Source: Bacteroides caecimuris (GTDB lineage: Bacteria > Bacteroidota > Bacteroidia > Bacteroidales > Bacteroidaceae). Taken from it: a stretch of DNA of 64,000 bases. The DNA lies in the NCBI RefSeq assembly GCF_001688725.2, contig NZ_CP015401.2:1798001-1862000 (forward strand). Reading direction: 5' to 3'. Of this stretch, positions 6,215 through 46,080 are shown one piece after another (the stretch's first letter is position 1; the number at the start of each line of letters is the position of its first letter). The translations under genes were made by a program, and so were the position numbers. The notes under the pieces are model-generated. The model was not told the origin of the DNA. It made no database searches and worked only from the letters and a program-made list of their open reading frames with translations.

Positions 6215-6432
6215 AAAACACATCAATCACTGTGTTTTCTAAAAGTTTGCATTATATTTGGGGAAAATGGACTGCACCCGGTGTAATTAAACAAGTTTGT
6301 TCTTATTCCCGGTTGCGACATTTTAGGTAACAGACGAGAAAGAAAGCCGTTATATATTCCTGTTGTGAGCGACTATCGAAAAAGAATGGATAGGAAGCGA
6401 AAAAAGATATGTGAGGTAACGGGGTATTTTTG
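6215..6432 (+). promoter_or_regulatory. Repeated regulatory module, copy A (upstream of araC-immunity operon)
   Basis: The parts in order are an inverted repeat AAAACACA/TGTGTTTT (6215-6238), a TATATTTG box (6253-6260), AAGCCGTTATATATTCC (6344-6360), a 35-bp motif starting CGACTATCGAAAAAGAATGG at 6370, and TATTTTTG (6425-6432) exactly 55 bp after the motif start. The same order and spacing recur at copies C and D, and the last two parts also at copy B. It probably gives two promoters with a regulator site placed just upstream of the second. Confidence 0.75.
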
Positions 6433-6474
6433 CCGCCATTGAAATATAAAATATATGAATTGCATGATACGGAT

Positions 6475-7353
6475 ATGGAAACAACATCAACACTAAGCAA
6501 AGAACTGCTGCGGGCGGTGGCGGCAGAACCGGAGATTGCGGAGAAGGTGCAAGCTCTGGTGGAAACAATGGAAGGAATGATACGAAGCAAGCAAGATGCT
6601 GGGGAATTTGCCGGGCTGGAACAGCTTGCCGAGGACGGACGGGTAATGCGGTTCGTGGCAGATACGCTGAACAAGCTACCGGAAGCGGTGACGTACAGCG
6701 ACAAGGGTTTCGAGGTGTATGTGATGCTGGTTGCCTTGTCACGGGAAGATGCGGCACTGCGGTATGTGTTCCGGTTATCGAGTTGGTATATCAACTACGG
6801 GTGCAACAGGGAACTGCTGTACTTGTGCCGGATATTGCACATCTATCCTGAACGGGGGTATCTGAACGGGGTGTATAACCGACTGGCGCAGTATGTGCAG
6901 CAAATGAAACGGAAGCGTCCGCACTGCACCAAGAGCGAGGAATTACCGAAAGGTGCAACGGAACTGGAAATACCTATTGCCCGTGCAAAGATAAAGGAAA
7001 TGACGGGTGAAGAGTTGTTGCAGGCAGAGGTGTATCTGGGAATGGTGAAGAATAAAAGGCTCGTGGAGAAGGTTACGAAGCACTACATGAAGGCAAAGAA
7101 TACGGGACATCTGGCTGACCTTTGCGGGTACAGCCTAAGCACTTTCCGGCGGCTGTTCCGTGAAGAGTTCCGTACTACTCCCCACGAATGGCTGAAAGGA
7201 CTGCGGAAAGACAAGGTGAAGAACCTGCTCACACAAACAGACTTGCCGCTGCTGGAAGTGGCAGAGGTATGCGGGTTTGTGTCGCAATCGTACCTGACGG
7301 AGTTCTGCCAGATGAATTTCGGGGCAAGTCCGGGTGAGATACGGAAAAATTGA
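6475..7353 (+). CDS. AraC family transcriptional regulator, first gene of the immunity operon
   Basis: Start chosen at ATG 6475 (METTSTLSKELL), 292 residues; a TTG at 6430 lies inside the -7 box and cannot be used. The C-terminal 95 residues are a double helix-turn-helix AraC domain (LADLCGYSLSTFRRLFREEF, then LLEVAEVCGFVSQSYLTEFC and FGASPGEIRKN). The N-terminal half, about 190 helical residues, matches no sensor domain I know. It is followed after 26 bp by the Imm5/YezG-like gene and is preceded by regulatory copy A, so it probably regulates itself. It is the best candidate for the protein that reads the four repeated motifs. Confidence 0.85.
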   Translation: METTSTLSKELLRAVAAEPEIAEKVQALVETMEGMIRSKQDAGEFAGLEQLAEDGRVMRFVADTLNKLPEAVTYSDKGFEVYVMLVALSREDAALRYVFRLSSWYINYGCNRELLYLCRILHIYPERGYLNGVYNRLAQYVQQMKRKRPHCTKSEELPKGATELEIPIARAKIKEMTGEELLQAEVYLGMVKNKRLVEKVTKHYMKAKNTGHLADLCGYSLSTFRRLFREEFRTTPHEWLKGLRKDKVKNLLTQTDLPLLEVAEVCGFVSQSYLTEFCQMNFGASPGEIRKN

Positions 7354-7379
7354 TAATGAAAGATTAATGATAAGTTACA

Positions 7380-8504
7380 ATGAATATAAAAACACTTCTT
7401 TCCCATTTTATGAAAAGCAAAAAAGTTGAAATAAGCGAGCTAAGGGCGGTTATAGAGCAAAGCGGTAACGGTCATTTGCCTTTGTCCTGCCGTGTGGAAC
7501 TGTTACAGTCCATCGGTAACGTAGAGATAGTGAACAAAGTGTTTGCGGAGTGCTGCAAAAAGGTATATCCTCTTTGGGGAAATGAGATTGAAGATACCTT
7601 GTTGCGGAAACTGCTGTGTTCGGCGGACGAATGCCTTTACCACGGAAAAGGAAAAGCGGATGCCTTAGTCGAAGAAGCGAATAGACTACGTAACTATGTA
7701 GAGGGGCAATCCTGTACGGAAAGTATGGCAGGATGGGCGGTAATCTCACTTTGCTATTCGATAGCGGATCATGCTGACGCTATGCTGGAAATTGATGAAT
7801 ACGAGGGGGAAGATGATGGTGCGTTTGAGTATGAGGTATGGAATACGGACTTTTTTGCTTCGATGGCTTTTGCCGGGGGAAATCCTTTTGTGGATGAAGG
7901 GGATGCGGGAAAAAGGCGGGAGTTCTGGAACTGGTATCTTGATACAGTAGAAACACTGTGCCGCAAATCAGATGTGCCGCTGATCCGAATAGATGCCCCT
8001 AAGAAAAAAGAGGTGGAACAAAACACTATTCCACAACGGACACAGACTTATCAGACACCTGCGATATTATCTAAAATTCAAGAAGTCATAGATAGCGCAT
8101 TAATGTTATATGATAAGGATTACAATGATAAATGGGATAAAATTATAATATCTACTCGTTGTATGGCTGTGGGGCTAAGAGCAAAAAATGCTGTAATTAA
8201 AGAAGGGCAAGAACATAGAATGAAAATATCTTTGCAGGTGTTTGATATAATGAACGATATTAAAAAAGAAATGTACAATCAAGCAAAAGAGGAAGGTGCA
8301 TGGTTCTATTGTATCATTGAGCTAAATCCTGACTTGACGTATTCTATCCGATTTATCTATGACGATAAAAGCCAGATTCCACAAGACCACTTAGTAGATT
8401 CAGATGATTTTGTTGCTGAATTTAAGAAGTACCCACGTGCCAAAGAATATACTCCGATGTGGTGGCAAGAGATATTGGGAAAGAAAGCGAAGTATTTAGA
8501 GTAA
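7380..8504 (+). CDS. Fused immunity-type protein: Imm5-like N-terminus, YezG/DUF600-like C-terminus
   Basis: A 374-residue protein with no signal peptide. Residues about 1-200 resemble the Imm5 immunity family (LCYSIADHADAMLEIDEYEG, WNTDFFASMAFAGGNPF, REFWNWYLDTV). After a linker around 205-225, residues 226-370 resemble the YezG/DUF600 immunity family (GAWFYCIIELNPDLTYSIRF, PMWWQEILGKK). Both families neutralise polymorphic toxin domains inside the cell. A joined pair would protect against two different toxins with no cognate toxin gene nearby, as expected of orphan immunity arrays (acquired interbacterial defence). The domain calls are by eye. It is second in the araC operon. Confidence 0.62.
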   Translation: MNIKTLLSHFMKSKKVEISELRAVIEQSGNGHLPLSCRVELLQSIGNVEIVNKVFAECCKKVYPLWGNEIEDTLLRKLLCSADECLYHGKGKADALVEEANRLRNYVEGQSCTESMAGWAVISLCYSIADHADAMLEIDEYEGEDDGAFEYEVWNTDFFASMAFAGGNPFVDEGDAGKRREFWNWYLDTVETLCRKSDVPLIRIDAPKKKEVEQNTIPQRTQTYQTPAILSKIQEVIDSALMLYDKDYNDKWDKIIISTRCMAVGLRAKNAVIKEGQEHRMKISLQVFDIMNDIKKEMYNQAKEEGAWFYCIIELNPDLTYSIRFIYDDKSQIPQDHLVDSDDFVAEFKKYPRAKEYTPMWWQEILGKKAKYLE

Positions 8505-8526
8505 CTATATCTGTAAAATCAAGCGT

Positions 8527-9192
8527 ATGGCAAAGAAAGTAAAATGTACGACGGGCGATGTGTTTGCTATTCCGGTGTCCGAAACGGAGTTTATATTCGG
8601 AAGGGTGCTGTTTGATGTAACGAAACAGTATATTAAGATTGTGCCGGAAGAAGAAAGAGTATTTAATTATCTGGGATTCTTCAATAAGAGTGTGCTGATT
8701 GAAATGTTCTTGGGTGTGTACACTTCGGTGAAAGGTGTGGACTTTGAGAAAAAAGCTGTTACCGGGACGTTCGTGTTTAACGATTTTCTTAGTGAATACA
8801 AGGGAATGATAGTCGGTAAAAGAGAGGTTAATCCAATTGAAGTGAGTTTCCCGGAAACATTGGGAAGCCGGAATATGGATTATTACCTGACATTGGGAGA
8901 ACTGGCGTTCCCCATAGATATAACAGAACAGATTTATTATGATGAAATAAAAGTGATGCCATCTACCGGATATGGTTACTATGAGGTTGTTGTTGCCACA
9001 TTAGATTTTTCCGGGCGGGACGATTTAATTAAAGAGGATGCCAAAATGGATAATTATTTTAGAGATTCTGATTTGCGCTCTTTGCCAGATGTGCGTAAAC
9101 GTATATGGAAACTTGCCGGAGAGGATATGAATAAGAGTTATTACGAATTGGCTAAAGGGAAAGGGGTTGACTTGGCACGATTGTATGTGTAA
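8527..9192 (+). CDS. Imm26-like immunity protein
   Basis: A 221-residue soluble protein. The opening CTTGDVFAIPVSETEFIFGR is the hallmark of the Imm26 family (GDxFAIPL...GxV/I), found as toxin-neutralising proteins in polymorphic toxin systems. The rest is beta-rich, with an acidic helical C-terminus. It follows the fused Imm protein after 22 bp and ends the araC operon; regulatory copy B begins 36 bp downstream. No toxin gene is nearby, so it is probably an orphan immunity gene against toxins of other Bacteroidales. The exact target is unknown. Confidence 0.65.
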   Translation: MAKKVKCTTGDVFAIPVSETEFIFGRVLFDVTKQYIKIVPEEERVFNYLGFFNKSVLIEMFLGVYTSVKGVDFEKKAVTGTFVFNDFLSEYKGMIVGKREVNPIEVSFPETLGSRNMDYYLTLGELAFPIDITEQIYYDEIKVMPSTGYGYYEVVVATLDFSGRDDLIKEDAKMDNYFRDSDLRSLPDVRKRIWKLAGEDMNKSYYELAKGKGVDLARLYV

Positions 9193-9227
9193 ATTACGGT
9201 AAAACAGCCTCTTTTGTGCGATTTGAG

Positions 9228-9290
9228 CGATTATCGAAAAAGAATGGACGGGAAACAGAAAAAGTAATATCCGGATTGCCAGTAACTTTG
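9228..9290 (+). promoter_or_regulatory. Repeated regulatory module, copy B (upstream of rteC)
   Basis: The 35-bp motif starts CGATTATCGAAAAAGAATGG at 9228 and the box TAACTTTG is at 9283-9290, again 55 bp from motif start to TA. The ACAGT-type palindrome and the AAGCCGTTA element found in the other copies are not present here. rteC starts 32 bp after the box. Confidence 0.75.
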
Positions 9291-9321
9291 CAGCCGTTTT
9301 TAGAAACCTAAAAAGGATTGC

Positions 9322-10143
9322 ATGGATAAATTTTTTGATTCGATGTTACAGGAGATTGACCGCTATACGGGGACGGTCAATCTGGAAGGGGAAAACATTA
9401 TTCCGGGCTGCCGTGAAATGATGAATTACCTGAAAGGCAAAATGATTGAACTGAAAAACTTTGCGTTGTCCCGTGAGTTTAAGGACGACGCAGAGGAAAT
9501 CCGATTTTTTAAGTACCAAAAGCCGCTGATACTCGGACGGCTGCTGTACTTCTACAAGCTATACCAGATCGAGAGCAACCGACCGCCAAGCTATGAACTT
9601 GCCACAGGTTATTACCAATGTGAGATTGAGAAACTGAAAACGGTCTTTGAACGCAGCCTTTCCTTTTTCCAGTATTACCGTAGCGGGGCTACGTACCGGG
9701 ACAACTTCTACTTCAAACGGGGACAAACGGAGATAAGCCCGGAAACGGACACGTTCATTTTCGAGCCGGAAGCGGAGCTATCCACCGGATATGACCGACT
9801 GGTCGCCCGGCTGATTGCGGTGGAACTGCTGTTAGCCTTCCTGACAAGGCGGATGCGTGAGCCTGCGGACGGTGAGCCGCTATCGGGAAAGAAACTGTAC
9901 TGGACGGACAAGAAAGCGGCGGCGGTGGAACTGATATACGGCATCCATGCGGTGGGAAGCGTGGATAACGGGAAGGCGGACATTATCGACATCGTGACGG
10001 CATTTGAACGGACGTTCCATATTGATCTGGGCGACGTGTACCACACGTTTATCGCCATGCGTAACCGGAAGAACAGCCGGACGGTGTATCTTGACCAGAT
10101 GATCGAGCAACTGCTCAAACGGATGGACGAAACGGATAGCTAA
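9322..10143 (+). CDS. rteC: RteC family regulator of excision/transfer
   Basis: A 273-residue protein matching RteC of CTnDOT-type elements (FFKYQKPLILGRLLYFYKLY, SFFQYYRSGATYRDNFYFKR). In CTnDOT, RteC activates the excision operon by binding an inverted repeat upstream of its promoter. Here the usual partners tetQ, rteA and rteB are missing, and rteC is headed by regulatory copy B instead. Excision control may therefore have been rewired to the AraC-linked regulon. A likely target is the palindrome at 58408-58455 upstream of the HTH pair near the integrase. A strong terminator follows at 10234-10278. Confidence 0.88.
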   Translation: MDKFFDSMLQEIDRYTGTVNLEGENIIPGCREMMNYLKGKMIELKNFALSREFKDDAEEIRFFKYQKPLILGRLLYFYKLYQIESNRPPSYELATGYYQCEIEKLKTVFERSLSFFQYYRSGATYRDNFYFKRGQTEISPETDTFIFEPEAELSTGYDRLVARLIAVELLLAFLTRRMREPADGEPLSGKKLYWTDKKAAAVELIYGIHAVGSVDNGKADIIDIVTAFERTFHIDLGDVYHTFIAMRNRKNSRTVYLDQMIEQLLKRMDETDS

Positions 10144-10233
10144 CTTATTGAAAACCAATGATAGGATTACCAAGTTCGTACCAAGCTGCTAAAAGCGACT
10201 TTATCGAGCCCTAACCAGTGACAAGCGGCTTGC

Positions 10234-10278
10234 AGCCGCCGGAAGAACCGAAATAAAAGGCTCTCCGGCGGCTTTTTT
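10234..10278 (+). terminator. Intrinsic terminator of rteC
   Basis: AGCCGCCGGA (10234-10243) pairs with TCCGGCGGCT (10264-10273), followed by T residues. Ten GC-rich base pairs. Confidence 0.88.
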
Positions 10279-10377
10279 CGTGCCGGAAAAAATCTTTGGC
10301 AAGGTGGTACGGACGTGAAAAGAAAAACAATCGAATAGACGGACATTTGCGACCATAATTTTAAAAATCAACAGATT

Positions 10378-10788
10378 ATGGAAGTAATAACAATCGAAAG
10401 CAAAGCGTTTGCCGCCCTCGTGGAGAAGATAGACGGGATAGCGGCATACGTGGAAGCGTCCCGGCAAAGGGAACCGGACGGGCAGCAGGGACAGGAAGAG
10501 AAGAACAGCCGGACGACGGGCAAGTGGATGACGGGCAGCGAGGTGTGCGAATATCTCGAAATCAGCCCCCGTACCTTGCAACGCTACCGCACGAACCGGA
10601 TTATCGCCTTCTCCATCTGCGGGAAGAAAATCCGCTACCGCCGCACGGACGTGGAACAGTTCCGGGAACGGTGGATGCGGGAAACGCCCGACAAGCAGAT
10701 CGACCGGATGATTGAACAACACCCTTTGCATGAACGTAAATACAAGCTGTATGGTAAGAAAAGAGGAAATACTGGCAAGGACGAGTAA
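10378..10788 (+). CDS. Helix-turn-helix (excisionase/MerR-like) protein
   Basis: A 136-residue protein with an N-terminal coiled or helical segment (residues 1-35), a charged linker, and a winged HTH at about 50-110 (MTGSEVCEYLEISPRTLQRY, then RRTDVEQF). This is the helix-turn-helix 17 type common in Bacteroides mobile elements, often annotated as excisionase-like. It overlaps the start of the primase-helicase gene. Three relatives occur in this window (12828, 58533, 58828), each beginning with a similar helical part. Role inferred as DNA binding for replication or excision. Confidence 0.8.
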   Translation: MEVITIESKAFAALVEKIDGIAAYVEASRQREPDGQQGQEEKNSRTTGKWMTGSEVCEYLEISPRTLQRYRTNRIIAFSICGKKIRYRRTDVEQFRERWMRETPDKQIDRMIEQHPLHERKYKLYGKKRGNTGKDE

Positions 10789-12853
10789 CGGGCTGGACGT
10801 GTTCCGCCACTACCTGCCCGTGAAGTGGCGGGTAGGCAGGAATTTCCTGAACCCGCTGTACGAGGACAGCAAGGCTTCGTGCAACGTGTATTATGACCGC
10901 CGTAGCGAAACGTACAGGATGAAAGACTTCGGGAACGGGGACTTTTCGGGCGACTGTTTCTTTATCGTGGCGAAAATCAAGGGGCTGGACTGCAAGAACG
11001 CCGCCGACTTCGTGGAGATACTGGAAACGATAGACCGTGAGCTGTGTCTGGGTATCAGCGAGGATGTACCGCCGGAAACGGTACGGGAACGGCAGGCTGC
11101 CATGCGGGTTGTCCCGTTGGCGGAAGGAAACGGGATGAACGGTGACGGAACGGCAGAACCGACCGGGACGGAAGAACGGACGGCAGAGCCGGAACACAAG
11201 CCACGCCCGTACCGGACGGTGCAGCAGCCGTTCACGGAAAAGGAACTGGAGTATTGGGCTGGGTACGGGATAACGGAAGCGGTGCTGAACCGATACGGGG
11301 TGCAATCGCTGAAGGAGTACCGGAGCGAAACGAAAGACGGGAAAGCGTTCGGTTTCACGTCCACAGCCATAGAACCGATGTTCGGGTATGCGGGGAAATG
11401 GGGCGTAAAGGTGTACCGCCCGAAATCGGAAGTACGGTTCGTGTACGGCGGTCATACGGGAGATAATTATTGTTTCGGGCTGGAAGAGTTGCCGCCCAAA
11501 GGCGACACGCTGTTCCTGACGGGCGGGGAAAAGGACGTGCTGACGCTGGCGGCGCACGGGTTCCATGCGATCTGTTTCAATTCGGAAACATCGGTGATAC
11601 CTGCAAAGATCATCCGGAAGCTGGTGTATCGGTTCAAGCATATCGTTCTGCTGTACGATGTGGATAAGATAGGGCTGGAAAGCTCCGAGAAACACCGACA
11701 GCAGCTAACGGAGTACGGGGTGAAACGGCTGGTGCTGCCGCTGACGGGTGAAAAGACGGACAAGGACGTGTCGGACTACTTCAAGGCGGGACGGACACGG
11801 GACGAGTTTGTGAAGCTGTTCCTTAAAATGCTGGATAGCCTGTACGGTGATACGATGGCGGTGCTGAAATCCTGCGAGATAGACTATGACCACCCGCCAC
11901 AGCAGGCGGTCGCCATCGTGACCGCCGGGGACGTGCCGCTGGGTTCGGAAGAGAACATCCTCTGCATCACGGGCGGGGAAGGCACGGGAAAGAGTAATTA
12001 TACGGCTGCGCTTGTCGCCGGGGCGATTCAGGAGAAGGAAACGGATGCGGACTTGTTGGGCGTTCGGGTAGAGCCGAACCGGAAAGGGCGTGCGGTGCTG
12101 CTCTACGATACGGAGCAGAGCGAGCAACAACTGTACAAGAACACAGGGCGGATGCTGCGGCGTGCAGGACGGGAGAAGATGCCGCCCTACCTGCACGTGT
12201 ACTGCCTGACGGGAATGTCACGGAGCGAGCGACTGACGGCTATCATGCAGAGCATGGATAAGTACCATTACCTGCACGGGGGTATTCATTTAGTGGTGAT
12301 CGACGGGGTGGCGGACTTGATACGCTGCGCCAATGACGAGGGGGAAAGCGTGGCGTTGATAGACGAGATTTACCGACTGGCGGGGATTTACCGCACGTGC
12401 ATCGCCGCCGTGGTGCATTTCGTTCCGAACGGGTTGAAGTTAAGGGGGCACTTGGGCAGCGAGTTGCAGCGCAAGTCGGCGGCTATCCTCTCGATAGAGA
12501 AGGACGATAACCCGGAAATCTCGGTCGTGAAGGCGTTGAAAGTGCGTGACGGCAGCCCGCTGGATATTCCTATCATGCAGTTCCGCTGGGACAAACAGAT
12601 GGGGATGCCCGTGTACGTGGGCGAAAAGCCCCGTGCGGAGAAGGAGAAGCGCAAGGAGAAGGAGCTGGCGGAAATGGCACGGGAAGCGTTCACCCGGCAG
12701 GAGAAGTACGGCTACATCGAACTGTGCGAACTGATACAGGAAATGCTGGAAGTGAAGGAACGGACGGCAAAGGGATATATCCGCTATATGCGTGAGAAGG
12801 AAATCGTCGAAAAGGAAGGAGATTACTATGTACACGGACAGGGAAGAGTTTGA
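10751..12853 (+). CDS. Primase-helicase type protein: Toprim plus RecA-like ATPase
   Basis: Start chosen at ATG 10751 (MVRKEEILARTSNG), about 700 residues; another ATG at 10712 would add 13. The N-terminus (about 1-85) resembles the CHC2-type primase fold without clear zinc cysteines. The Toprim-like domain spans about 245-345 (DTLFLTGGEKDVLTLAAHG, IVLLYDVDKIGLESSEKH). A RecA/RepA-type ATPase at about 395-600 has Walker A ITGGEGTGKSNYT and Walker B LVVIDGVADLI. The C-terminal tail looks like a winged helix. It probably primes or unwinds element DNA after excision or transfer. It overlaps both HTH neighbours. Confidence 0.75.
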   Translation: MVRKEEILARTSNGLDVFRHYLPVKWRVGRNFLNPLYEDSKASCNVYYDRRSETYRMKDFGNGDFSGDCFFIVAKIKGLDCKNAADFVEILETIDRELCLGISEDVPPETVRERQAAMRVVPLAEGNGMNGDGTAEPTGTEERTAEPEHKPRPYRTVQQPFTEKELEYWAGYGITEAVLNRYGVQSLKEYRSETKDGKAFGFTSTAIEPMFGYAGKWGVKVYRPKSEVRFVYGGHTGDNYCFGLEELPPKGDTLFLTGGEKDVLTLAAHGFHAICFNSETSVIPAKIIRKLVYRFKHIVLLYDVDKIGLESSEKHRQQLTEYGVKRLVLPLTGEKTDKDVSDYFKAGRTRDEFVKLFLKMLDSLYGDTMAVLKSCEIDYDHPPQQAVAIVTAGDVPLGSEENILCITGGEGTGKSNYTAALVAGAIQEKETDADLLGVRVEPNRKGRAVLLYDTEQSEQQLYKNTGRMLRRAGREKMPPYLHVYCLTGMSRSERLTAIMQSMDKYHYLHGGIHLVVIDGVADLIRCANDEGESVALIDEIYRLAGIYRTCIAAVVHFVPNGLKLRGHLGSELQRKSAAILSIEKDDNPEISVVKALKVRDGSPLDIPIMQFRWDKQMGMPVYVGEKPRAEKEKRKEKELAEMAREAFTRQEKYGYIELCELIQEMLEVKERTAKGYIRYMREKEIVEKEGDYYVHGQGRV

Positions 12854-13130
12854 AGGCTGGATGCAGCGGATCATGCAGCGGTTCGACACGACCGAAAAGC
12901 TGCTGGAAAGGGTGCTGAAAAAGAACAGCCAACTGGATGGTGAAGAGGTGCTGGATAATCAGGACTTGTGCCTGCTGCTGAAAGTCGGCATACGGACGTT
13001 GCAACGCTACCGGGCTATGGGGCTACTGCCCTACTTCACGATCAGCGGGAAGGTATTCTACCGGGCGAAAGATGTGCATGAGTTTATCCGCAACCGATTC
13101 GATGCAGTAGCGGAGAGAAAGCGTAAGTGA
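12828..13130 (+). CDS. Helix-turn-helix protein, excisionase-like
   Basis: A 100-residue protein starting at ATG 12828, preceded by GGAAGGAG, one of the clearer ribosome binding sites in the window. An N-terminal helix (residues 1-35) is followed by the HTH core NQDLCLLLKVGIRTLQRYR and the wing ISGKVFYRAKDVHEFI. It overlaps the primase-helicase gene by 26 bp, so it is translationally coupled. Same family as the protein at 10378. A terminator follows at once. Confidence 0.8.
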   Translation: MYTDREEFEGWMQRIMQRFDTTEKLLERVLKKNSQLDGEEVLDNQDLCLLLKVGIRTLQRYRAMGLLPYFTISGKVFYRAKDVHEFIRNRFDAVAERKRK

Positions 13131-13143
13131 AAAGTGAACGGTT

Positions 13144-13183
13144 GCCCCGCTTTGTCGTTAGATAAGGCGGGGCTATTCTTTTG
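13144..13183 (+). terminator. Intrinsic terminator after the HTH gene
   Basis: GCCCCGC (13144-13150) and GCGGGGC (13167-13173), with further CTT/AAG pairing in the loop, then a T-rich tail. Confidence 0.85.
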
Positions 13184-13478
13184 TAGTTCGGTTGGTTTGC
13201 ACTATATTTGCAACAGAAAATATGAAAGTTCATTGCCCGGCTTGAACGCAAGCGGGTTTTGATTATATAGATTGTACGTTCGCTGAACGTCTCGGTACGA
13301 AAACTGGCACTTTTCACTAAGAAACGGGATTACGGCGCAATGCACATGTTGTATGCACATACAGCGTGTCTTGCCTGTTTCGTTTCTTAGGTATGCCAGT
13401 ACCTCGTACCGGAATAGCGTAATTCACGCTGTTTTTTTATGGCAGTTGGCGGGCATAACCGATAAAAAGAAAAGTGTT
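13179..13478 (+). ncRNA. Promoter and long structured leader of the DHFR-like gene (candidate cis-regulatory RNA)
   Basis: A TTTTG -33 element (13179-13183) and a TATATTTG -7 box (13203-13210) would start RNA near 13217, leaving a leader of about 260 nt. Three perfect stems nest inside one another: CGGTACGA/TCGTACCG (13293-13300, 13404-13411), ACTGGCA/TGCCAGT (13303-13309, 13394-13400) and CTAAGAAACG/CGTTTCTTAG (13317-13326, 13381-13390). A small hairpin AGCGT/ACGCT (13416-13430) followed by seven T lies 40 bases before the ATG. This layout fits an attenuator or riboswitch, or a folded recombination site; the ligand is unknown. Confidence 0.55.
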
Positions 13479-13964
13479 ATGAAACAGATTACTTTGTATG
13501 TGTACCAAACCATTGACGGATGCGCCGCCCGTGCCGACAAGCAGGTGGACGATGCTATTCTGAAAGCCGATTGCCTGCTCTTGGATGAAGAAACTTATCT
13601 GGATGTATTTATGAATCACCTCGGCTGGCCGCTGGCGGAGAAAGAAACTTTTGTAGTGGCGCAAGCCGATTGTAACCTAACGGAAAAAGAAGGGGTGCAG
13701 TTCATCACGGGGGATGCCGTGGCGGAACTCTCACGAATGAAAGCTGCGGGTGACGGGGTGATGGTCGCCTATGGCGAAAGAATTGCGGCTGTGCTGCTCA
13801 ATAGCGGGCTGGCGGATGAAATCGTGGTAGTTACGCTGCCGAAAGTTGCAGGGGGTGAAGAAAAGGCTTTGCGGCATATTACGGGGGACGGTGCGGCATG
13901 GGTGGTACGGTCTTGCAAGGTGCTGGATGGTGAGAAGGTACGAACGGTGTACGGAAGGGTGTAA
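13479..13964 (+). CDS. Dihydrofolate reductase / RibD C-terminal family protein
   Basis: A 161-residue protein starting at ATG 13479 (MKQITLYVYQTIDG). The opening matches the N-terminal strand of RibD-C/DHFR-like reductases (xxYxxxSLDG), and LLNSGLADEIVVVTLP matches their LxxxGLVDE segment. The usual GG of the NADPH loop is replaced by VAYGERIAAVL, so cofactor binding may differ. Such proteins reduce pterin or pyrimidine substrates; the true substrate here is unknown. It stands alone, with a structured leader before it and three hairpins after it. Family call moderate, function open. Confidence 0.68.
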   Translation: MKQITLYVYQTIDGCAARADKQVDDAILKADCLLLDEETYLDVFMNHLGWPLAEKETFVVAQADCNLTEKEGVQFITGDAVAELSRMKAAGDGVMVAYGERIAAVLLNSGLADEIVVVTLPKVAGGEEKALRHITGDGAAWVVRSCKVLDGEKVRTVYGRV

Positions 13965-38459: not shown

Positions 38460-38463
38460 GAAC

Positions 38464-39096
38464 ATGAAACAGATAAAAGCAATAGTCATGGGGTTGGCGT
38501 GCCTGCTGGCAGCGGGTACGGCTAACGCACAGTGGGTCGTGAGCGATCCGGGGAACTTGGCGCAAGGGATTATCAATACCGTCAAACAGATTGCGCAGAC
38601 CTCTACAACGGCGAAAAATACATTGGACGGTTTTAAAGAAACCGCCAAAGTGTTTGAGCAAGGTAAAAAATATTATGATGCGCTAAAGGATGTACACGAC
38701 GTGATAAAGGGCGGCGTGAAGGTGAAGAAGAGCATCGAGATGGTGGCGGATATTTCGGAAATCTATGTGCGGAACTATCAGAAGATGTTAGGCGATCCGA
38801 ACTATACGCCGGATGAATTGAGTACTATCTCCTTCGGGTACGCAAAGTTGCTAAGCGAGAGTGCGGACATATTGCAGGATTTGAAAAACGTGGTGAATAT
38901 CACCGGAATGTCGCTATCGGATGCGGAGCGGCTGGCAATCATCGACCAGAGCTATAAGCGGTTACTGGAATACCGTAATCTGGTGCAGTACTACACGAAC
39001 AAAAATATCTCGGTGAGTTACCTGCGGGCGAAAAAGAAAAAGGACACCGACCGGGTGATGGCACTGTACGGCTCGGCGGACGAACGCTATTGGTGA
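38464..39096 (+). CDS. traI: TraI (DUF4141)
   Basis: A 210-residue exported protein with signal peptide MGLACLLAAGTANAQ. The helical body (QWVVSDPGNLAQGIINTVKQ, KKIEMVADISEIY-like segments) is typical of the TraI/DUF4141 family, in the position of VirB5-like proteins. It should act in the periplasmic part of the mating channel. In operon with traJ. Confidence 0.88.
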   Translation: MKQIKAIVMGLACLLAAGTANAQWVVSDPGNLAQGIINTVKQIAQTSTTAKNTLDGFKETAKVFEQGKKYYDALKDVHDVIKGGVKVKKSIEMVADISEIYVRNYQKMLGDPNYTPDELSTISFGYAKLLSESADILQDLKNVVNITGMSLSDAERLAIIDQSYKRLLEYRNLVQYYTNKNISVSYLRAKKKKDTDRVMALYGSADERYW

Positions 39097-39132
39097 GAAC
39101 GGATTCCTATACATATATATAAATAAGGTAAG

Positions 39133-40140
39133 ATGATGTTATTATCAATAGACTTTGAAAACCTGCATCAGATATTGCACACGCTGTATCAGGAAATGAT
39201 GCCGCTATGCTCGAATTTGACGGGCGTAGCCAAAGGGATAGCCGGGTTGGGTGCGCTGTTCTATGTTGCCGCCAAAGTGTGGCAAGCCCTTGCCCGTGCC
39301 GAACCTATCGACGTGTACCCGCTGCTGCGTCCCTTCGTCATCGGGCTGTGTATCATGTTCTTCCCGACCTTCGTACTGGGTACGATTAACACGGTTCTCT
39401 CCCCCGTGGTGAAAGGCTGCCACGGGATGCTGGAAACACAGACCTTCGACATGAACAAGTACCGGGAACAGAAGGACAAGCTGGAATATGAGGCGAACAA
39501 GCGGAATCCGGAAACGGCGTACCTTGTGGATAAGGAAGAGTTCGACAAGAAACTGGATGAACTCGGATGGTCGGCGGGCGACCTGATTACGATGGGCGGG
39601 ATGTACATAGACCGGGCGGAATACCGGATGAAACAGAATATACGCAGGTGGTTTCAGGAACTCTTGGAACTGTTGTTCCAGTCCGCCGGGCTGGTGATAG
39701 ACACGATACGGACGTTCTTTCTGATCGTCCTCTCCATCTTAGGGCCTATCGCCTTTGCGATAAGCGTCTATGATGGATTCCAAAGCACCCTGACGCAGTG
39801 GATCACCCGGTATATCTCCGTCTATATGTGGCTGCCCGTGAGCGACCTGTTCAGCTCGGTGCTGGCAAGGATTCAGGTGTTGATGCTCACCAAGGACATA
39901 GAGGCGATGAGCGATCCCACCTTTATACCGGACAGCAGTAATACGGTGTACATGGTATTCCTGATTATCGGGATATTCGGGTACTTCACGATACCGACCG
40001 TTGCGAACTGGATCATCATGGCGGGCGGCGTAAGCGGCGCGAACCGTGCGATGAACACGACTGCCTCCAAAGCGGGGAATGTTGCCGCTGCCGGGGCGGG
40101 TGCTGCCGTGGGGAATGTTGCCGGAAAACTTATCAAGTAA
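39133..40140 (+). CDS. traJ: TraJ, VirB6-like inner-membrane protein
   Basis: A 335-residue protein with several membrane segments (IAGLGALFYVAAKVWQALA; FVIGLCIMFFPTFVLGTI; VIDTIRTFFLIVLSILGPIA; TVYMVFLIIGIFGYFTIPTV). It matches TraJ of CTnDOT, the VirB6-like core channel subunit. The Ala/Gly-rich C-terminus (AAAGAGAAVGNVAGK) is usual. Confidence 0.9.
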   Translation: MMLLSIDFENLHQILHTLYQEMMPLCSNLTGVAKGIAGLGALFYVAAKVWQALARAEPIDVYPLLRPFVIGLCIMFFPTFVLGTINTVLSPVVKGCHGMLETQTFDMNKYREQKDKLEYEANKRNPETAYLVDKEEFDKKLDELGWSAGDLITMGGMYIDRAEYRMKQNIRRWFQELLELLFQSAGLVIDTIRTFFLIVLSILGPIAFAISVYDGFQSTLTQWITRYISVYMWLPVSDLFSSVLARIQVLMLTKDIEAMSDPTFIPDSSNTVYMVFLIIGIFGYFTIPTVANWIIMAGGVSGANRAMNTTASKAGNVAAAGAGAAVGNVAGKLIK

Positions 40141-40160
40141 CTAAAAAATCAAGAAAGGAA

Positions 40161-40784
40161 ATGGAATTTAAAAGTTTGAAGAATATCGAAACGAGTTTCA
40201 GGCAGATACGTCTGTTTGCGCTGGTGTTCATCTGCCTGTGTGCGGTGGTGACGGGCTTTGCGCTCTGGAAGTCGTACAGCTTTGCCGAAGCGCAACGGCA
40301 GAAGATTTATGTGCTGGATAACGGGAAGTCGCTGATGCTGGCACTCTCGCAGGACGTGCAGCAGAACCGCCCGGTGGAAGCACGGGAACACGTGCGCAGG
40401 TTTCACGAGCTGTTTTTCACGCTCTCGCCGGACAAGTCGGCTATCGAGGGCAATATCAAACGCTCGCTGATGCTGGCGGACAAGAGCGCATTTAACTACT
40501 ACAAAGACCTCTCGGAAAAGGGGTATTATAACCGGGTGATTTCGGGGAACATCAACCAGATGGTACAGATTGACAGCGTGCGGTGTGACTTTGACAAGTA
40601 CCCGTACAACGTGCGGACGTTCGCCCGCCAGATCATCCTACGGGAAAGCTCGGTGACGGAAAGAAGCCTTGTCACCCGCTGCCGGTTGTTGGATGCCGTC
40701 AGGAGTGACAACAACCCGCAGGGGTTCATCATCGAGGGCTTCGAGATTACCGAGAACAAGGACTTGCAAACCATCAAACGCTAA
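40161..40784 (+). CDS. traK: TraK (proposed VirB8-like)
   Basis: A 207-residue protein starting EFKSLKNIETSFRQIRLFAL, the standard TraK opening. One membrane helix (LFALVFICLCAVVTGFALW) anchors a periplasmic domain (LSPDKSAIEGNIKRSLML, YNVRTFARQIILRESS). It is thought to bridge inner-membrane and outer-membrane parts of the channel. Confidence 0.9.
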   Translation: MEFKSLKNIETSFRQIRLFALVFICLCAVVTGFALWKSYSFAEAQRQKIYVLDNGKSLMLALSQDVQQNRPVEAREHVRRFHELFFTLSPDKSAIEGNIKRSLMLADKSAFNYYKDLSEKGYYNRVISGNINQMVQIDSVRCDFDKYPYNVRTFARQIILRESSVTERSLVTRCRLLDAVRSDNNPQGFIIEGFEITENKDLQTIKR

Positions 40785-40788
40785 CGGC

Positions 40789-41058
40789 ATGGTCGGAAAA
40801 TTTATGGCGAAGGTCATTGCTGAAATACAGGACTGGGCGGACGTAAAGCTCCGCCGCCTGTGCGGGCGTATCACGCCGGATCAGCGGGTGGTGGTTATCC
40901 TTGTGATGTTCGTGGTGTTCGGCGGGTTGTCGGTGTACATGACCGTCGCAGCCATTTACAACATCGGCAAAAGTGACGGTCGGGAACTGGGAATAGAGCA
41001 TATCGATCCCATCCGGCTAAAGAATGACAGTATAATCAATCCTTTTAACAACCAGTAA
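40789..41058 (+). CDS. traL: TraL (DUF3989)
   Basis: An 89-residue protein starting at ATG 40789, four bases after traK; an internal ATG at 40804 is also possible. One membrane helix (VVVILVMFVVFGGLSVYMTV) and the C-terminal GIEHIDPIRLKNDS are typical of TraL (DUF3989). Small inner-membrane component of the transfer machine. Confidence 0.85.
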   Translation: MVGKFMAKVIAEIQDWADVKLRRLCGRITPDQRVVVILVMFVVFGGLSVYMTVAAIYNIGKSDGRELGIEHIDPIRLKNDSIINPFNNQ

Positions 41059-41061
41059 ATC

Positions 41062-42465
41062 ATGGAAGAACAGAATCAGGAAAAAGAAACGGTAACGCAG
41101 CACGTAACGGTGACGGATGCCGCAGCCCCGGACACGGGGAAAGGGGACAAAGGGAAAAAAGGCGGCGGAAAGGACAAGAAAGCCGCCAGAGAACTGACGC
41201 CGAAACAGATGCAGCAGCGGAAAAAGCTGTTGGTGTACCCGTTGATGGGGTTGCTGTTTTTGGGTAGTATGTGGCTGATCTTCGCACCTTCGGACAAGAA
41301 GGACGAAGGCGGGGAAACGGTCGGAGCGTTCAACGCCGATATTCCACTGCCGGAGAATGACGGGATTATCGGTGACAAGCGGAAAGCCTACGAGCAGGCG
41401 CAGGTAGAAAAGAAACAGGCGGACAAGGTGCGCTCGTTGCAGGACTTCGCTTTTGCGGCTGACAACGGAACGGACGAGGTGGAAATGGAACTGCCGGACA
41501 GCGAGCCGGAACGGGAGCCGTTCAGGGATTATTCGGGTTCTACACGGGGAAAGGGTGTGAACTCTTCGGCGGTTGCCTACCGGGACATCAACCGACAACT
41601 CGGCACGTTCTACGAAACGCCGAAGGTGGATGCCGAAAAGGAAGAACTGAAACGTCAGGTGGAAGAACTGACCGCCCGGCTGGATGCGCAGCAGGGACAG
41701 GCGGGCGGCATAGACGAGCAGGTCGCCCTGATGGAAAAGAGTTACGAGCTTGCCGCCAAGTACATGGGGCAGAACGGGCAGGCAGGACAAAGCGGCGCAA
41801 TCGTGCAAGTTCCCGTTACCGGACAGAGTACCGGGCAAGGGACGGGAAAGCCCGCCATTGCGGTACAGGCGGCACGGCAACAAACGGTGTCGGGGCTGCA
41901 ACAGCCGATGAGCGATGCGGAGTTCATGCGGGCGTACAGCCAGCCGAGAAACTACGGGTTCAATACGGCGGTCGGCAGCGGGTACGCTATGGGAAAGAAT
42001 ACGATACGGGCGTGCATCCACCAAGACCAGACGATTATGGACGGACAGACGGTGAAGCTCCGGCTGCTCGAACCGCTGCAAGCGGGAAACCTTGTGATTC
42101 CGCAGAATACCCTTGTTTCGGGTACGGGAAAGGTACAGGGGGAACGGTTGGATATTGTGGTGTCGTCCATCGAATACCGGGGGAACTTGCTGCCCGTGGA
42201 ACTGGCGGTGTATGACAGTGACGGGCAGAAAGGCTTGTCCGTTCCTTCGTCGCTGGAACAGGAAGCGGCAAAGGAAGCCCTTGCGAATATCGGCGGCGGA
42301 CTGGGGACAAGCATTTCGTTCGCGCAGAGTGCCGGACAGCAGATCGCTATGGACTTGACAAGGGGTGTGATGCAGGGCGGCAGCCAGTATCTTGCGAAGA
42401 AGTTCCGGACGGTGAAGGTGCATCTGAAAGCGGGATATGAATTGATGCTTTATGCCAAAGAGTAG
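41062..42465 (+). CDS. traM: TraM, VirB10-like
   Basis: A 467-residue protein. A basic N-terminus (KGKKGGGKDKKAARELTPKQ) and one membrane helix (KLLVYPLMGLLFLGSMWLIF, about residues 54-74) precede a long periplasmic linker with a coiled segment, and a C-terminal VirB10-like domain (TIRACIHQDQTIMDGQTVKL, QAGNLVIPQNTLVSGTGKV). It should span the envelope and transmit ATPase energy to the outer-membrane pore. Confidence 0.9.
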   Translation: MEEQNQEKETVTQHVTVTDAAAPDTGKGDKGKKGGGKDKKAARELTPKQMQQRKKLLVYPLMGLLFLGSMWLIFAPSDKKDEGGETVGAFNADIPLPENDGIIGDKRKAYEQAQVEKKQADKVRSLQDFAFAADNGTDEVEMELPDSEPEREPFRDYSGSTRGKGVNSSAVAYRDINRQLGTFYETPKVDAEKEELKRQVEELTARLDAQQGQAGGIDEQVALMEKSYELAAKYMGQNGQAGQSGAIVQVPVTGQSTGQGTGKPAIAVQAARQQTVSGLQQPMSDAEFMRAYSQPRNYGFNTAVGSGYAMGKNTIRACIHQDQTIMDGQTVKLRLLEPLQAGNLVIPQNTLVSGTGKVQGERLDIVVSSIEYRGNLLPVELAVYDSDGQKGLSVPSSLEQEAAKEALANIGGGLGTSISFAQSAGQQIAMDLTRGVMQGGSQYLAKKFRTVKVHLKAGYELMLYAKE

Positions 42466-42717
42466 TACTTTTTCTTTTGTCTTGATACAAAAGAAAAAGA
42501 TACCAAAAAGAAAAAATTAAGACTGCATTTTCTACGCTACTCTCTTCCTGCGTTTCGCTAAAGAAAAAGAACTCGCTACGCTCAAACAGCTTTTTCTTTT
42601 TGACGCTACACTACGGTCGTTCGCTTCACGCTGCGAAAATGAGGTCGGGATGCCATGCGGATTGGATGCTATGCAGGCTTGGAATGTGAAAATAACAATG
42701 ATTAAAAAGAAAAGACA
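42466..42717. repeat. Intergenic hairpin-rich stretch between traM and traN
   Basis: CTTTTTCTTTTGT and ACAAAAGAAAAAG (about 42471-42498) form a long stem directly after traM. Further on, GAAAAAGAACTCGC and AGCTTTTTCTTTTTG give weaker pairing. No gene is seen. It belongs to the CTTTCTTT-type hairpins scattered in this element (also near 50.7 and 52.7 kb). Confidence 0.65.
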
Positions 42718-43656
42718 ATGAAAAAGATTTTGGGATTGGTTGCCCTCGTTATGGGCGCAGTAATGTGTGTGAACGCACAAGTGAATGACACGGTACGGAC
42801 GGTTGCCGGAAACGACCTGTATCAAGGGATCACGCAAAAGTTACCGTATCGGCAGATGGTTACTCCGTTCGGGGTACAGGTGACGTTTGCCAAGACAGTG
42901 CATATTATATTCCCGTCAGCGGTGAAGTACGTGGACTTGGGTAGTAACTGGATTATTGCCGGAAAAGCGGACGGGGCGGAGAACGTAATCCGGGTGAAGG
43001 CTACGACCGAAGGGTTTCCGGGGGAAACGAATTTCTCGGTGATTTGTGAGGATGGTAGTTTTTACAGTTTCAACGCCAAATATGCGCATGAGCCGGAAAT
43101 GCTGAACATCGAAATGAAGGACTTTTTAGAGAATGAGGACACAACAGACTTTTCGCATACCCGCATGAATATCTATTTCCGTGAACTGGGCAACGAAAGC
43201 CCGTTGCTGGTGAAGCTGATTATGCAGAGCATCTATAAGGCGGACAAGCGGGAAATCAAGCATCTGGGTTGTAAACGCTTCGGGGTGCAATTCCTTTTGA
43301 AATCCATCCACTCGCATAACGGGCTGTTCTATTTCCACACGGAAACGAGGAACAGGTCGAACGTGGCTTTCAACACGGACTTTATCAAGTTCAAGATTGT
43401 GGATAAGAAAGTGCCGAAGCGCACCGCCATTCAGGAACGGGCGATAGATCCGGTACGCAGCTATAACGAGGTACTGGTAACGAACGGGAAAAGCAATGTG
43501 CGCACGGTGTACGTCGTTCCGCAATTCACCATACCGGACGATAAGATTCTGGTGATTGAACTGTTCGAGAAGAACGGCGGCAGGCATCAGACGATACGGG
43601 TGGAGAACACCGACCTTGTGGCGGCAAAAGTGATTAACGAACTGAAAATCAAATAA
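42718..43656 (+). CDS. traN: TraN, VirB9-like
   Basis: A 312-residue exported protein (signal LGLVALVMGAVMCVNAQ). FAKTVHIIFPSAVKYVDLGS and GLFYFHTETRNRSNVAFN are the conserved TraN segments. It corresponds to VirB9, part of the outer-membrane core with TraM. In operon with traO. Confidence 0.9.
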   Translation: MKKILGLVALVMGAVMCVNAQVNDTVRTVAGNDLYQGITQKLPYRQMVTPFGVQVTFAKTVHIIFPSAVKYVDLGSNWIIAGKADGAENVIRVKATTEGFPGETNFSVICEDGSFYSFNAKYAHEPEMLNIEMKDFLENEDTTDFSHTRMNIYFRELGNESPLLVKLIMQSIYKADKREIKHLGCKRFGVQFLLKSIHSHNGLFYFHTETRNRSNVAFNTDFIKFKIVDKKVPKRTAIQERAIDPVRSYNEVLVTNGKSNVRTVYVVPQFTIPDDKILVIELFEKNGGRHQTIRVENTDLVAAKVINELKIK

Positions 43657-43661
43657 AGGAT

Positions 43662-44243
43662 ATGAAAAAGGTATTGTTGATTATCATGCTCTTCGGGGTG
43701 TGCCTGCATTTTAACCAGGCACACGCCCAAAGATGCCTGCCCGGAATGAGGGGAATACAGTTCACGGGCGGACTTTCGGACGATCTGCGCTGGAAAAACG
43801 GTAACGGTTTCGGTTACCATGCCGGGATAGCGGTAAGCACTTACATGAAGAACGCCCATCATTGGGTGGTCGGTGCGGAGTATCTGGAAAAGCGGTATGA
43901 CTACCGGGGCTGCCTTTATCCGGTCAGCCAGTTTACGGGGGAAGGCGGGTATTACCTGAACTTCCTTTCGGACAGGAAGAAGACATTTTTTGCGGCACTG
44001 GGATTGTCCGCCCTTGCCGGATATGAAACGGTGAACTGGGGCGAACAGATGATGCCGGACGGTTCACGGCTGACTGATGGGGATAATTTTATTTACGGGG
44101 GTGCACTGACGCTGGAATTGTCCGCATACCTGACGGATAAGATTGTCTTGCTGGTAAACGGACGGCAAAGGATGCTGTTCGGGGGTGATTGTGGAAAATT
44201 CCACTCGCAGGTCGGCGTGGGAATTAGGTTTATGATTCGATGA
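43662..44243 (+). CDS. traO: TraO, outer-membrane conjugation protein
   Basis: A 193-residue exported protein (signal LLIIMLFGVCLHFNQAHAQ). GMRGIQFTGGLSDDLRWKNG and the beta-rich repeats ending in an aromatic or basic end (VGVGIRFMIR) suggest a small beta-barrel, as for TraO. It follows traN by five bases. Confidence 0.88.
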   Translation: MKKVLLIIMLFGVCLHFNQAHAQRCLPGMRGIQFTGGLSDDLRWKNGNGFGYHAGIAVSTYMKNAHHWVVGAEYLEKRYDYRGCLYPVSQFTGEGGYYLNFLSDRKKTFFAALGLSALAGYETVNWGEQMMPDGSRLTDGDNFIYGGALTLELSAYLTDKIVLLVNGRQRMLFGGDCGKFHSQVGVGIRFMIR

Positions 44244-44258
44244 CTACTATAATAAATA

Positions 44259-44696
44259 ATGTATATGAAGAAGATAATTTATCAAATGCTCGTGGGTTGC
44301 TACATAGTGGCCGCCCTCGTGCTTGTGTGTGCCTGTAATAGCCAGTTGGATATTCAGACGAGATACCCGTTCACGGTGGAGATGATGCCCGTCCCGAAAA
44401 AACAGAAGGTGAACGAAACGGCGGAAATCCGCTGTGAACTCAAACGGGATGGACGTTGGGAAGATACGGAGTACACGATACGCTGGTTCCTGTATGACGG
44501 GAAAGGCACGCTTAAACTGGATGATGGCACGGTGCTGTTGCCGAATGACCGCTACCCGCTGGAGAAAGAAATGTTCCGGCTGTATTTTACTTCGCAGTCG
44601 GACGATCAGAGCAGTTTGAAGGTGTGGGTGGAAGATTCGTTCGGGCAGACGGTGGAACTGGAGCTAAGTTTCAATAATGACAATTCGGAAGAATGA
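44259..44696 (+). CDS. traQ: TraQ-like DUF3872 lipoprotein
   Basis: A 145-residue protein with a lipoprotein signal ending VLVCAC. DIQTRYPFTVEMMPVPKKQK and YTIRWFLYDGKGTLKLDDGT match DUF3872 (TraQ). It should sit in the periplasm or outer membrane. TraP (a primase), which lies before TraQ in CTnDOT, is missing here. Confidence 0.85.
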   Translation: MYMKKIIYQMLVGCYIVAALVLVCACNSQLDIQTRYPFTVEMMPVPKKQKVNETAEIRCELKRDGRWEDTEYTIRWFLYDGKGTLKLDDGTVLLPNDRYPLEKEMFRLYFTSQSDDQSSLKVWVEDSFGQTVELELSFNNDNSEE

Positions 44697-44711
44697 CTAA
44701 AAAGGTAAACA

Positions 44712-45860
44712 ATGAGAGAGAATACAGTTCCGGGGGTGTATCTTCTTAATATAGATATGGGGTGCGAACAGGCGAAAGAGGAATTTAAACGGATGGGATT
44801 TACAGACGGGGAAAAGCAGGACTTTCAAGGGTTTACTCCGCAAGCCTTGTCCGTAACTCCGCTTTGGCTGGTTTGGCACGGGACGATACACAACGGCAAT
44901 ATGTTGCTGAAAAGTGATGAAGAACTGATACCGCTGGGTATCAGTTCAAAAACAGAGCTTCCTATCCGCAGGTTGAGTGAAATAGTCCGGGAATATAGCC
45001 ATAGAGCGGGAAGGTATCAGGACGAAACGGAGAACGGGGATTATTCTCTGGAAAGATTGTGCCGATTTGAACGCACGAGTGAGAAGTGCATGACTGCCGT
45101 CCGGCAAGACGGCTGGGAACTGGCACACGTGCCGGAAGAGGTGAAAACGCCGGAAATGTGCCGTCTTGCACTTGATAACAGTGCAGATTTGGCTTATGAA
45201 AACTTGGAACTGTTGCACTATGTGCCGTTCCCGGATATTTGTCTGGAATATATCAAGGCGAATAACGGGTGCGGCGATGTTGAACTGCCGGAAGTATTGA
45301 GTGCCCTTGCACCGGGAGTTATTGACAGCCGGATAGCGGACTATGCCATCGAACAGGACGGACGGTGTTTGGGTGTGCTGCCTGCCCATCTGCAAACCGT
45401 GGAACGGGCTGAAAAGGCGGTAAAGGAAGCAGGTACGGAAGCCCTTGCGGGCGAAAAAGTACGTGCGGAACTGAAAACGGAAGGGTTGTACCGGAAATGT
45501 GCGGAACATAGCTGGATGTCATTCGCCCTGCTTCCGAAAGCGGAGCGTTCACCGGAAATCTGCCTGCTGGCAGCAAAACTCTATCCCCAAGAAACAGCCA
45601 AACGTCCGGACTTGATACCGGAAAGCGTGAAAAACGGGTGCAACGTGTATTCGCTCTGCAAAATGATGGAAGCACGGACAGGGGAAAAGTTCACATACCA
45701 ACAGATGACGGACTTCTACAACGGGAAGCCGCTGAACGTGCGCCGGATGGAAATGCCGGACGGGGTACAGAAAGACAAGGCGGTGAAGTTCGACAAGGAG
45801 AAACAGGAGTTTTCTTTCTCGGCTATCCGGCAGGAACGGAAAAGAGGATTGCGGATGTGA
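44712..45860 (+). CDS. DUF4116-like repeat protein at the end of the tra operon
   Basis: A 382-residue soluble protein, no signal. Residues about 110-330 contain helical repeats of the DUF4116 kind (SEKCMTAVRQDGWELAHVP, TPEMCRLALDNSADLAYENL, ERSPEICLLAAKLYPQE). The C-terminus is basic. Role unknown; its place after traQ suggests a late accessory function. The last 60 bp are copied, degraded, at 48236-48299 beyond the next two genes, so the segment between was probably inserted here. A terminator follows at 45888. Confidence 0.65.
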   Translation: MRENTVPGVYLLNIDMGCEQAKEEFKRMGFTDGEKQDFQGFTPQALSVTPLWLVWHGTIHNGNMLLKSDEELIPLGISSKTELPIRRLSEIVREYSHRAGRYQDETENGDYSLERLCRFERTSEKCMTAVRQDGWELAHVPEEVKTPEMCRLALDNSADLAYENLELLHYVPFPDICLEYIKANNGCGDVELPEVLSALAPGVIDSRIADYAIEQDGRCLGVLPAHLQTVERAEKAVKEAGTEALAGEKVRAELKTEGLYRKCAEHSWMSFALLPKAERSPEICLLAAKLYPQETAKRPDLIPESVKNGCNVYSLCKMMEARTGEKFTYQQMTDFYNGKPLNVRRMEMPDGVQKDKAVKFDKEKQEFSFSAIRQERKRGLRM

Positions 45861-45887
45861 TATGAGCCGACAATACAAAATAGTGAG

Positions 45888-45913
45888 AAAGCATCCTTCG
45901 GGATGCTTTTTTG
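45888..45913 (+). terminator. Intrinsic terminator of the tra operon
   Basis: AAAGCATCC, TTCG loop, GGATGCTTTTTT. Very stable tetraloop hairpin, 28 bp after the last stop. Confidence 0.92.
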
Positions 45914-45928
45914 TATGGGTAACAATGA

Positions 45929-46080
45929 AAAATACAGTAAATACTGTGTTTTATAAAAATCTTATCTTATATTTGGCAAAAGATGCCAGATGAAGCCGTT
46001 AAATATCCTAATATGGTCGATTACCGAAAAAGAACGGACTGAAAACGAAAAGGGAGTTTAGGGGTGGCGGAGTATCTTTG
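45929..46080 (+). promoter_or_regulatory. Repeated regulatory module, copy D (upstream of the beta-barrel/DUF2931 pair)
   Basis: The parts are inverted repeat AAAATACAGT/ACTGTGTTTT with spacer AAAT (45929-45952), TATATTTG (45968-45975), GAAGCCGTTAAATATCC (45992-46008), the 35-bp motif from 46018 (CGATTACCGAAAAAGAACGG) and TATCTTTG (46073-46080), 55 bp from motif start. Spacing between parts equals copy C to within a base or two. Confidence 0.78.

Follow-up and report, generated by a model that had tools for sequence, protein, structure and literature searches.

Why should a regulator of conjugative transfer, a set of exported proteins and several immunity-like genes carry the same sequence in front of their promoters? 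This question is raised by a 64,000-nucleotide stretch of the Bacteroides caecimuris genome (contig NZ_CP015401.2, positions 1,798,001 to 1,862,000; hereinafter designated the window), most of which is occupied by an integrative and conjugative element (ICE) of about 58 kb. The element encodes RteC, an excisionase-like helix-turn-helix (HTH) protein, a topoisomerase, DUF4099/DUF3945 proteins, a coupling protein, a relaxase, MobC, Tra proteins, ParB, ArdA and an integrase; with RteC, CTnDOT-type tra/mob genes and a tyrosine integrase all present, it is a CTnDOT-like ICE. Our analysis of the sequence suggests that an ICE-encoded AraC-type activator appears to switch on both the transfer regulator and envelope and immunity-like cargo through equally spaced sites at four promoters.

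Four equally spaced motifs upstream of -7 boxes

The motif occurs four times on the forward strand, each time matching the 20-mer CGAYTAYCGAAAAAGAAYGG without mismatch, and at all four copies a TAnnTTTG box (hereinafter the -7 box) begins exactly 55 bp past the motif start, bearing out the spacing proposed in a first-pass annotation of the stretch. By chance, 0.07 matches to CGAYTAYCGAAAAAGAAYGG with up to three mismatches are expected per window, and none of 100 shuffled sequences contains four. Since the 63 TAnnTTTG boxes in the window (both strands) amount to 4.9e-4 per position, their presence at a single offset in 4/4 copies lies far beyond chance. No fifth site was found in the window by a weight-matrix scan (four copies at 54–63 bits, next best 4.4). 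Searching the whole 4.84-Mb genome with up to three mismatches returned 11 places, namely the four copies and seven with three mismatches; none besides the four copies has two or fewer, and the box at +55 is absent from the four of these seven that were inspected.

Conservation is greatest in a 36-bp block (27–33/36 identical bases in pairwise comparison) and in the box. Between site 2 and the other three sites, the 60 bases upstream (19–20/60) and the 19-bp spacer (6–7/19) are near background, and behind the box sites 1 and 2 agree at 18/32 positions. The spacers of sites 1, 3 and 4 have 11–15/19 bases in common, and sites 3 and 4 also share 37/60 upstream bases, a similarity indicating that one and the same longer segment is present twice, at sites 3 and 4. 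The box-to-ATG distance is 39–51 bp, and all four promoters lack a TTTG at the -33 position, consistent with predicted activator-dependent class-II promoters. In AraC-type promoters of this class, exemplified by E. coli AraC, tandem direct half-sites lie about 21 bp apart and the proximal one overlaps the -35/-33 element. A palindromic operator was considered and rejected, as the motif has no dyad and its best arms match at only 4–6/8 positions.

The four predicted operators make a single regulator acting just upstream of the four promoters a well-supported reading of the sequence, in agreement with the first-pass annotation. Its description of the regulon as element-wide was overstated, in that no copy precedes the tra, mob or integrase genes; its choice of the AraC protein as the binder yields the best candidate but is not proven, and is supported by the recurring gene pair, half-site register and operator–helix co-variation described below.

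AraC–rteC pairing, tandem half-sites and operator classes

The candidate binder starts at ATG 6475, not at TTG 6430, which lies inside the -7 box, and is 292 residues long. It has the AraC/XylS hallmark, a C-terminal DNA-binding domain with two HTHs, as judged from the HTH_18 match (1.1e-19), the predicted structure and a Foldseek search. The predicted structure (mean predicted local distance difference test score 82) consists of an all-helical N-domain followed by the two HTHs; the best Foldseek matches of the model are AraC-type DNA-binding domains at a marginal E of about 1e-3, and no clear partner was found in the structure search for the helical N-domain. Two AraC queries were positive in at least 2 and at least 3 of 393 genomes of the order, the source genome included; these are lower bounds because only 5 or 6 candidates were scored per genome. 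No relatives of the AraC and RteC proteins were found in viral_contigs. The source genome contains two further AraC genes before rteC (C1:2530367-2532140 and C1:664031-664870, the rteC at the latter being matched over only 70 residues, at 91%). Both loci carry another operator class, and three AraC paralogs may act within one cell.

A search with RteC returned 61 places, 59 of which were read with their surroundings and 2 left out; removing identical sequences and adding three loci from the AraC searches gave 60 distinct RteC sequences (E<1e-20). An AraC relative lies on the same strand within 138 bp upstream at 16 of these 60 loci, some of which offer little upstream sequence (8 bases in L136, 890 in L140), and at 13/57 without the three loci brought in by the AraC search; among the 16 pairs, L106 nearly duplicates L046. 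The box TAACTTTG stands ahead of rteC in 14 of the 16 pairs and is missing in the other two. AraC–rteC therefore looks, from sequence, like a recurring ICE module, with AraC as part of the ICE core; in the window's own element and in its relative in genome G312, cargo stands between araC and rteC. Relatives of the window's TetR-family protein (37–42% identical) are found upstream of AraC–rteC in five other elements, and this recurrence suggests that TetR may be a second core regulator of the ICE.

In the related rteC promoters, taken as a group, a half-site recurs with a period of 21 bp and covers approximately -53 to -37 and -32 to -16 relative to the TA of the -7 box. With lag and position left free and alignment columns shuffled jointly, eight promoters other than our own reach 7.75/12 (as high in 1/300 shuffles), and four mutually dissimilar promoters give a lag-21 repeat of 7.5/12 (as high in 0/300). 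Taken one by one, 9/14 adjacent pairs show lag 21 as one of their four best repeats.

Which protein reads the operator is best addressed by a natural exchange in G332, whose aligned backbone blocks are 92–97% identical to the own element. Compared with the own element, G332 has 94% identity in RteC, only 32% in AraC and 17/40 matching operator bases; compared with G337, it has 90% identity in AraC, 30/40 in the operator and only 39% in RteC. Because the own-like RteC of G332 is accompanied by an AraC and an operator that are both foreign, RteC is disfavored as the binder and was rejected as its own regulator. Across the elements, the operator classes follow the AraC recognition helices: YSLSTFRR/GFVSQSYLTEFC in the own element and G312, MEY..FRR/GF.S..NLNDFC in G332, G337, G307, own2 and G303, and a third class in G434 and G219.

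The motif was also sought elsewhere. Exact matches to the 20-mer were found in eight stretches of genome_contigs, with the box at +55 in one (G437, B. cellulosilyticus); 23 places were found in 301 genomes of the family, with the box only at the own four and at 0/19 elsewhere; and a scan of viral_contigs gave one stretch and none with the box. Most matches outside the source genome are chance occurrences. Wide occurrence of the motif without this AraC, which the first-pass annotation had named as the result that would speak against its proposal, was not seen, but G437 does lack the protein. Motif and box were seen together in four genomes, and the AraC gene is intact in two (own, G312), frameshifted in one (G317) and absent from one (G437), a tally biased by the fact that it was the AraC search that led to G312 and G317. 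G437 retains only the left end of the ICE with operator 1, as a relic; in G317, AraC is frameshifted near its end, the second operator is shortened and no RteC match is found at E<=1e-40; in G316, a genome to which the AraC search likewise led, AraC is truncated. These three look like decaying elements. In G312, AraC is 97% identical and intact, a TAG near the gene standing before the true start, and there are five operators. The fifth operator-promoter copy of G312 (L055:14335-14397; C1:3574335) lies about 1 kb behind the third, its homology begins inside the motif, and cargo genes lie between the two and behind the fifth.

A predicted AraC switch and its alternatives

Building on the observed motif and spacing, the group half-site periodicity, the AraC–rteC pairing and the operator–helix co-variation, we propose, with a probability of about 0.75, that the motif serves the ICE's own AraC class-II activator as its operator, that the ancestral target of AraC is rteC and that the operator-promoter was copied to cargo and to araC. 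AraC would contact the two tandem half-sites, the second of which would occupy the place of the missing -33 element, and would thereby recruit RNA polymerase. Its ancestral role would be to switch on rteC, and RteC, if it acts as in CTnDOT, would then activate excision and transfer. In the own/G312 lineage, copies of the operator-promoter would have come to stand ahead of low-GC (G+C content) exported and immunity-like cargo and of araC itself, placing transfer, cargo expression and positive feedback on one switch. Binding, activation rather than repression, the function of RteC here and the araC feedback are steps that we infer.

Several observations weigh against this proposal. In the comparison of five non-own clades, the match is 0.60 at lag 21 and 0.286 on average after shuffling, and a second peak (0.51) appears at lag 14; the interval used for this comparison was picked after inspection, and the promoters are related to one another. 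Five of the 14 single promoters (L048, L046, L106, L112 and L082) do not have lag 21 among their four best repeats, a result that slightly lowered our confidence, and the 21-bp repeat of the own rteC promoter alone (0.43, p=0.21) is not significant. G337 and G307 share 35/40 operator bases and 98% of RteC with an AraC only 41% identical (DNA-binding domain 47%); we attribute the shared operator to their nearly identical recognition helices, and it would be equally simple to suppose that the operator traveled with rteC. In G332, TetR (93% identical to that of G337) was exchanged together with AraC, and G437, the only other genome found motif-first, has no AraC ortholog. In nine further elements (G332, G434, G219, G315, own2, G307, G337, G303 and G601), no second copy of the rteC operator was found ahead of another box within the 60–80 kb around rteC, that of G332 being covered to its contig end about 22 kb behind rteC; one G219 box is a weak partial match (27/56, z 3.7, versus 36–41/56 for the real own copies). 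A free-offset search in G332, G434 and G219 likewise found none. The cargo operators therefore look like a trait specific to the own/G312 lineage.

The same data were weighed under three other explanations. That the four sites are one strong promoter segment spread with its cargo by duplication or recombination, conserved by recent descent with no regulator involved, seems unlikely to us, although the flanks common to sites 3 and 4, the spacers common to sites 1, 3 and 4, and the fifth copy in G312 with homology beginning inside the motif speak for it, and homology to relatives breaks soon past the promoters (23454, 6467 and 46192). Site 2 shares little with sites 3 and 4 beyond motif and box (upstream 19–20/60, spacer 6/19), however, the half-sites of unrelated AraC–rteC elements keep to the same register, and duplication would account for the origin of the copies but not for the continued conservation of the segment. 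We consider it still less probable that TetR rather than AraC binds the motif. It is present in all four genomes with motif and box, including the AraC-less G437, and in G332 it was exchanged jointly with AraC; yet the motif is non-palindromic, TetR identity does not predict the operator (G307 and own2, TetR 42% and operator 30/40; own and G332, TetR 41% and operator 17/40), and TetR relatives also occur in elements whose operator is found solely at rteC.

Least probable, and in our judgment very unlikely, is that cargo cassettes undergo site-specific recombination at the motif, which would then be comparable to the intergenic motifs conserved in rAID arrays (PMC12247911). Low-GC cargo does diverge between relatives shortly behind the motif-promoter, and three tyrosine recombinase genes stop about 2.1 kb before operator 3. 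Against this, the spacing to the promoter box is fixed, one copy precedes the core gene rteC, homology breaks at varied distances past the box (+1, +35 and +112), and the recombinase genes belong to an insertion absent from G312, G332 and G434. In the rAID definition, immunity genes with less than 41% GC follow a tyrosine recombinase in the same orientation; here, the cargo has 38–41% GC, and a gene on the opposite strand stands between the recombinases (17967-21274) and operon 3. The likeness to rAID arrays lies in low-GC immunity-type genes with conserved intergenic motifs, and the difference in the anchoring of the motif to promoters, among them that of a core ICE gene.

Returning to the AraC switch, control of rteC in Bacteroides ICEs is described via the tetracycline-linked cascade of CTnDOT, wherein RteA and RteB lead to RteC: RteB is the activator of rteC, whose product in turn governs the excision and transfer genes (PMC1976400); a tetracycline-independent CTn86-like ICE is named as well (PMC5729914). 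The element studied here shares with CTnDOT the type of ICE and rteC as the regulated gene. The differences are an AraC relative in the upstream position and an operator that rteC has in common with cargo operons; in addition, no rteA/rteB relative, kinase or sigma54 regulator was found among the 48 window proteins (of 140 listed open reading frames) scanned against Pfam. The scanned genes upstream of rteC (3534-9192) encode a transposase, TetR, AraC, Imm5 and an Imm26-like protein, with no RteA/RteB two-component system of the CTnDOT type among them. The open-license literature searched, which leaves out most subscription papers, yielded no account of rteC being controlled by an AraC protein.

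ICE regulators that couple cargo to transfer have precedents in other ICE families. SetCD of SXT/R391 ICEs recognizes a motif just upstream of or over the -35 element at several promoters with poor -35 elements, which are called reminiscent of class II; peaks with the core sequence lie mostly at transfer genes, and activation of the toxin-antitoxin mosAT is also reported (PMC4344509). It resembles our system in being an ICE-encoded activator with a motif near -35 at multiple promoters, and differs in belonging to another protein family and in that the targets here are rteC and cargo with no tra promoter. TraR of Tn4371-family ICEs, a regulator inside a cargo operon, ties cargo activation to transfer, as is proposed here; it is a LysR-type protein of beta- and gamma-proteobacteria, and the abstract says nothing of an operator-promoter recurring at cargo (PMC11448139). 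An AraC module in the place of RteA/RteB would, if real, provide another input to transfer for many ICEs. The module is not rare, one protein cluster 97% identical to this AraC having 751 member sequences on 161 contigs, and the proposed AraC regulon offers a link between cargo and transfer that can be tested directly.

A bolder extension, which we hold only tentatively and think doubtful, is that the operator-promoter is a portable docking site that captures interbacterial-defense or envelope cargo directly behind it and automatically joins each new cargo gene to the conjugation switch, with the araC loop being bistable. The idea stems from G312, in which extra cargo genes occupy the first position directly behind operators 1 and 3 compared with the own element; at operator 4, homology between the two stops about 73 bp into the first gene. 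If true, the ICE would arm the host or new recipient exactly on commitment to transfer.

Features, base composition and neighboring genes

Table 1 Features of the window, with positions counted from its first base.
Feature	Position	Strand	Basis or remark
CTnDOT-like ICE, approximate extent	3024..60809		putative ends, from where homology to relatives ends
TetR-family regulator, ICE left end	5453..6124	+	PF00440 2.3e-06
Predicted operator copy 1	6370..6405	+	half-sites about 6372-6388 and 6393-6409; fronts araC operon
-7 box TATTTTTG, promoter 1	6425..6432	+	
AraC-family regulator, 292 aa, proposed binder of the four operators	6475..7353	+	Pfam HTH_18 1.1e-19
Imm5-family immunity-like protein	7380..8504	+	PF14423 4.4e-45; 40.7% GC
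Weak Imm26-like protein	8527..9192	+	PF15428 0.00038, under cut-off; 39.6% GC
Predicted operator copy 2	9228..9263	+	fronts rteC
-7 box TAACTTTG, promoter 2	9283..9290	+	
RteC, ICE excision/transfer activator family	9322..10143	+	PF09357 3.7e-69
Excisionase-like HTH protein behind rteC	10378..10788	+	HTH_17 1.8e-12; phrog_66 9.9e-09
Predicted operator copy 3	23391..23426	+	fronts exported cargo operon
-7 box TATCTTTG, promoter 3	23446..23453	+	
Cargo operon 3: TonB_C lipoprotein-like, TPR/LRR, Sel1 and TPR proteins	23497..28310	+	Pfam; 38.4% GC
Predicted operator copy 4	46018..46053	+	fronts cargo operon 4
-7 box TATCTTTG, promoter 4	46073..46080	+	
Cargo operon 4: protein without Pfam match and DUF2931 protein	46119..48217	+	40.3% GC

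Homology to G332, G312, G317 and G437 begins at 3024-3083, and homology to G434 stops at 60809; terminal direct repeats were searched for at the ICE ends and none were found. The base composition separates araC from its neighbors. Its GC of 52.3% is close to those of the rteC–primase stretch (54.5%) and the tra stretch (51.7%), and the remaining genes downstream of operators 1, 3 and 4 have 38–41% (34–38% in G312), indicating that araC belongs to the ICE backbone and that the rest looks like cargo. Two product labels of the first-pass annotation were weakened: the Imm26 match scores 21.1 bits against a Pfam cut-off of 23.3, and the supposed barrel protein at 46119 has no Pfam match.

The insertion with three adjacent tyrosine recombinase genes measures about 3.5 kb (17869-21404), and in G312, G332 and G434 the base corresponding to 17868 joins that corresponding to 21405. 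Near the left end of the ICE and the transposase gene (3534-5225) lies an abutting inverted repeat (3319-3368) with 25-nt arms that are 96% complementary and no loop. Two further regions of very low GC, 48448-50694 (27%) and 55430-57358 (32%), encode a 748-residue protein without a Pfam match and a KAP NTPase, and are possibly cargo outside the AraC regulon.

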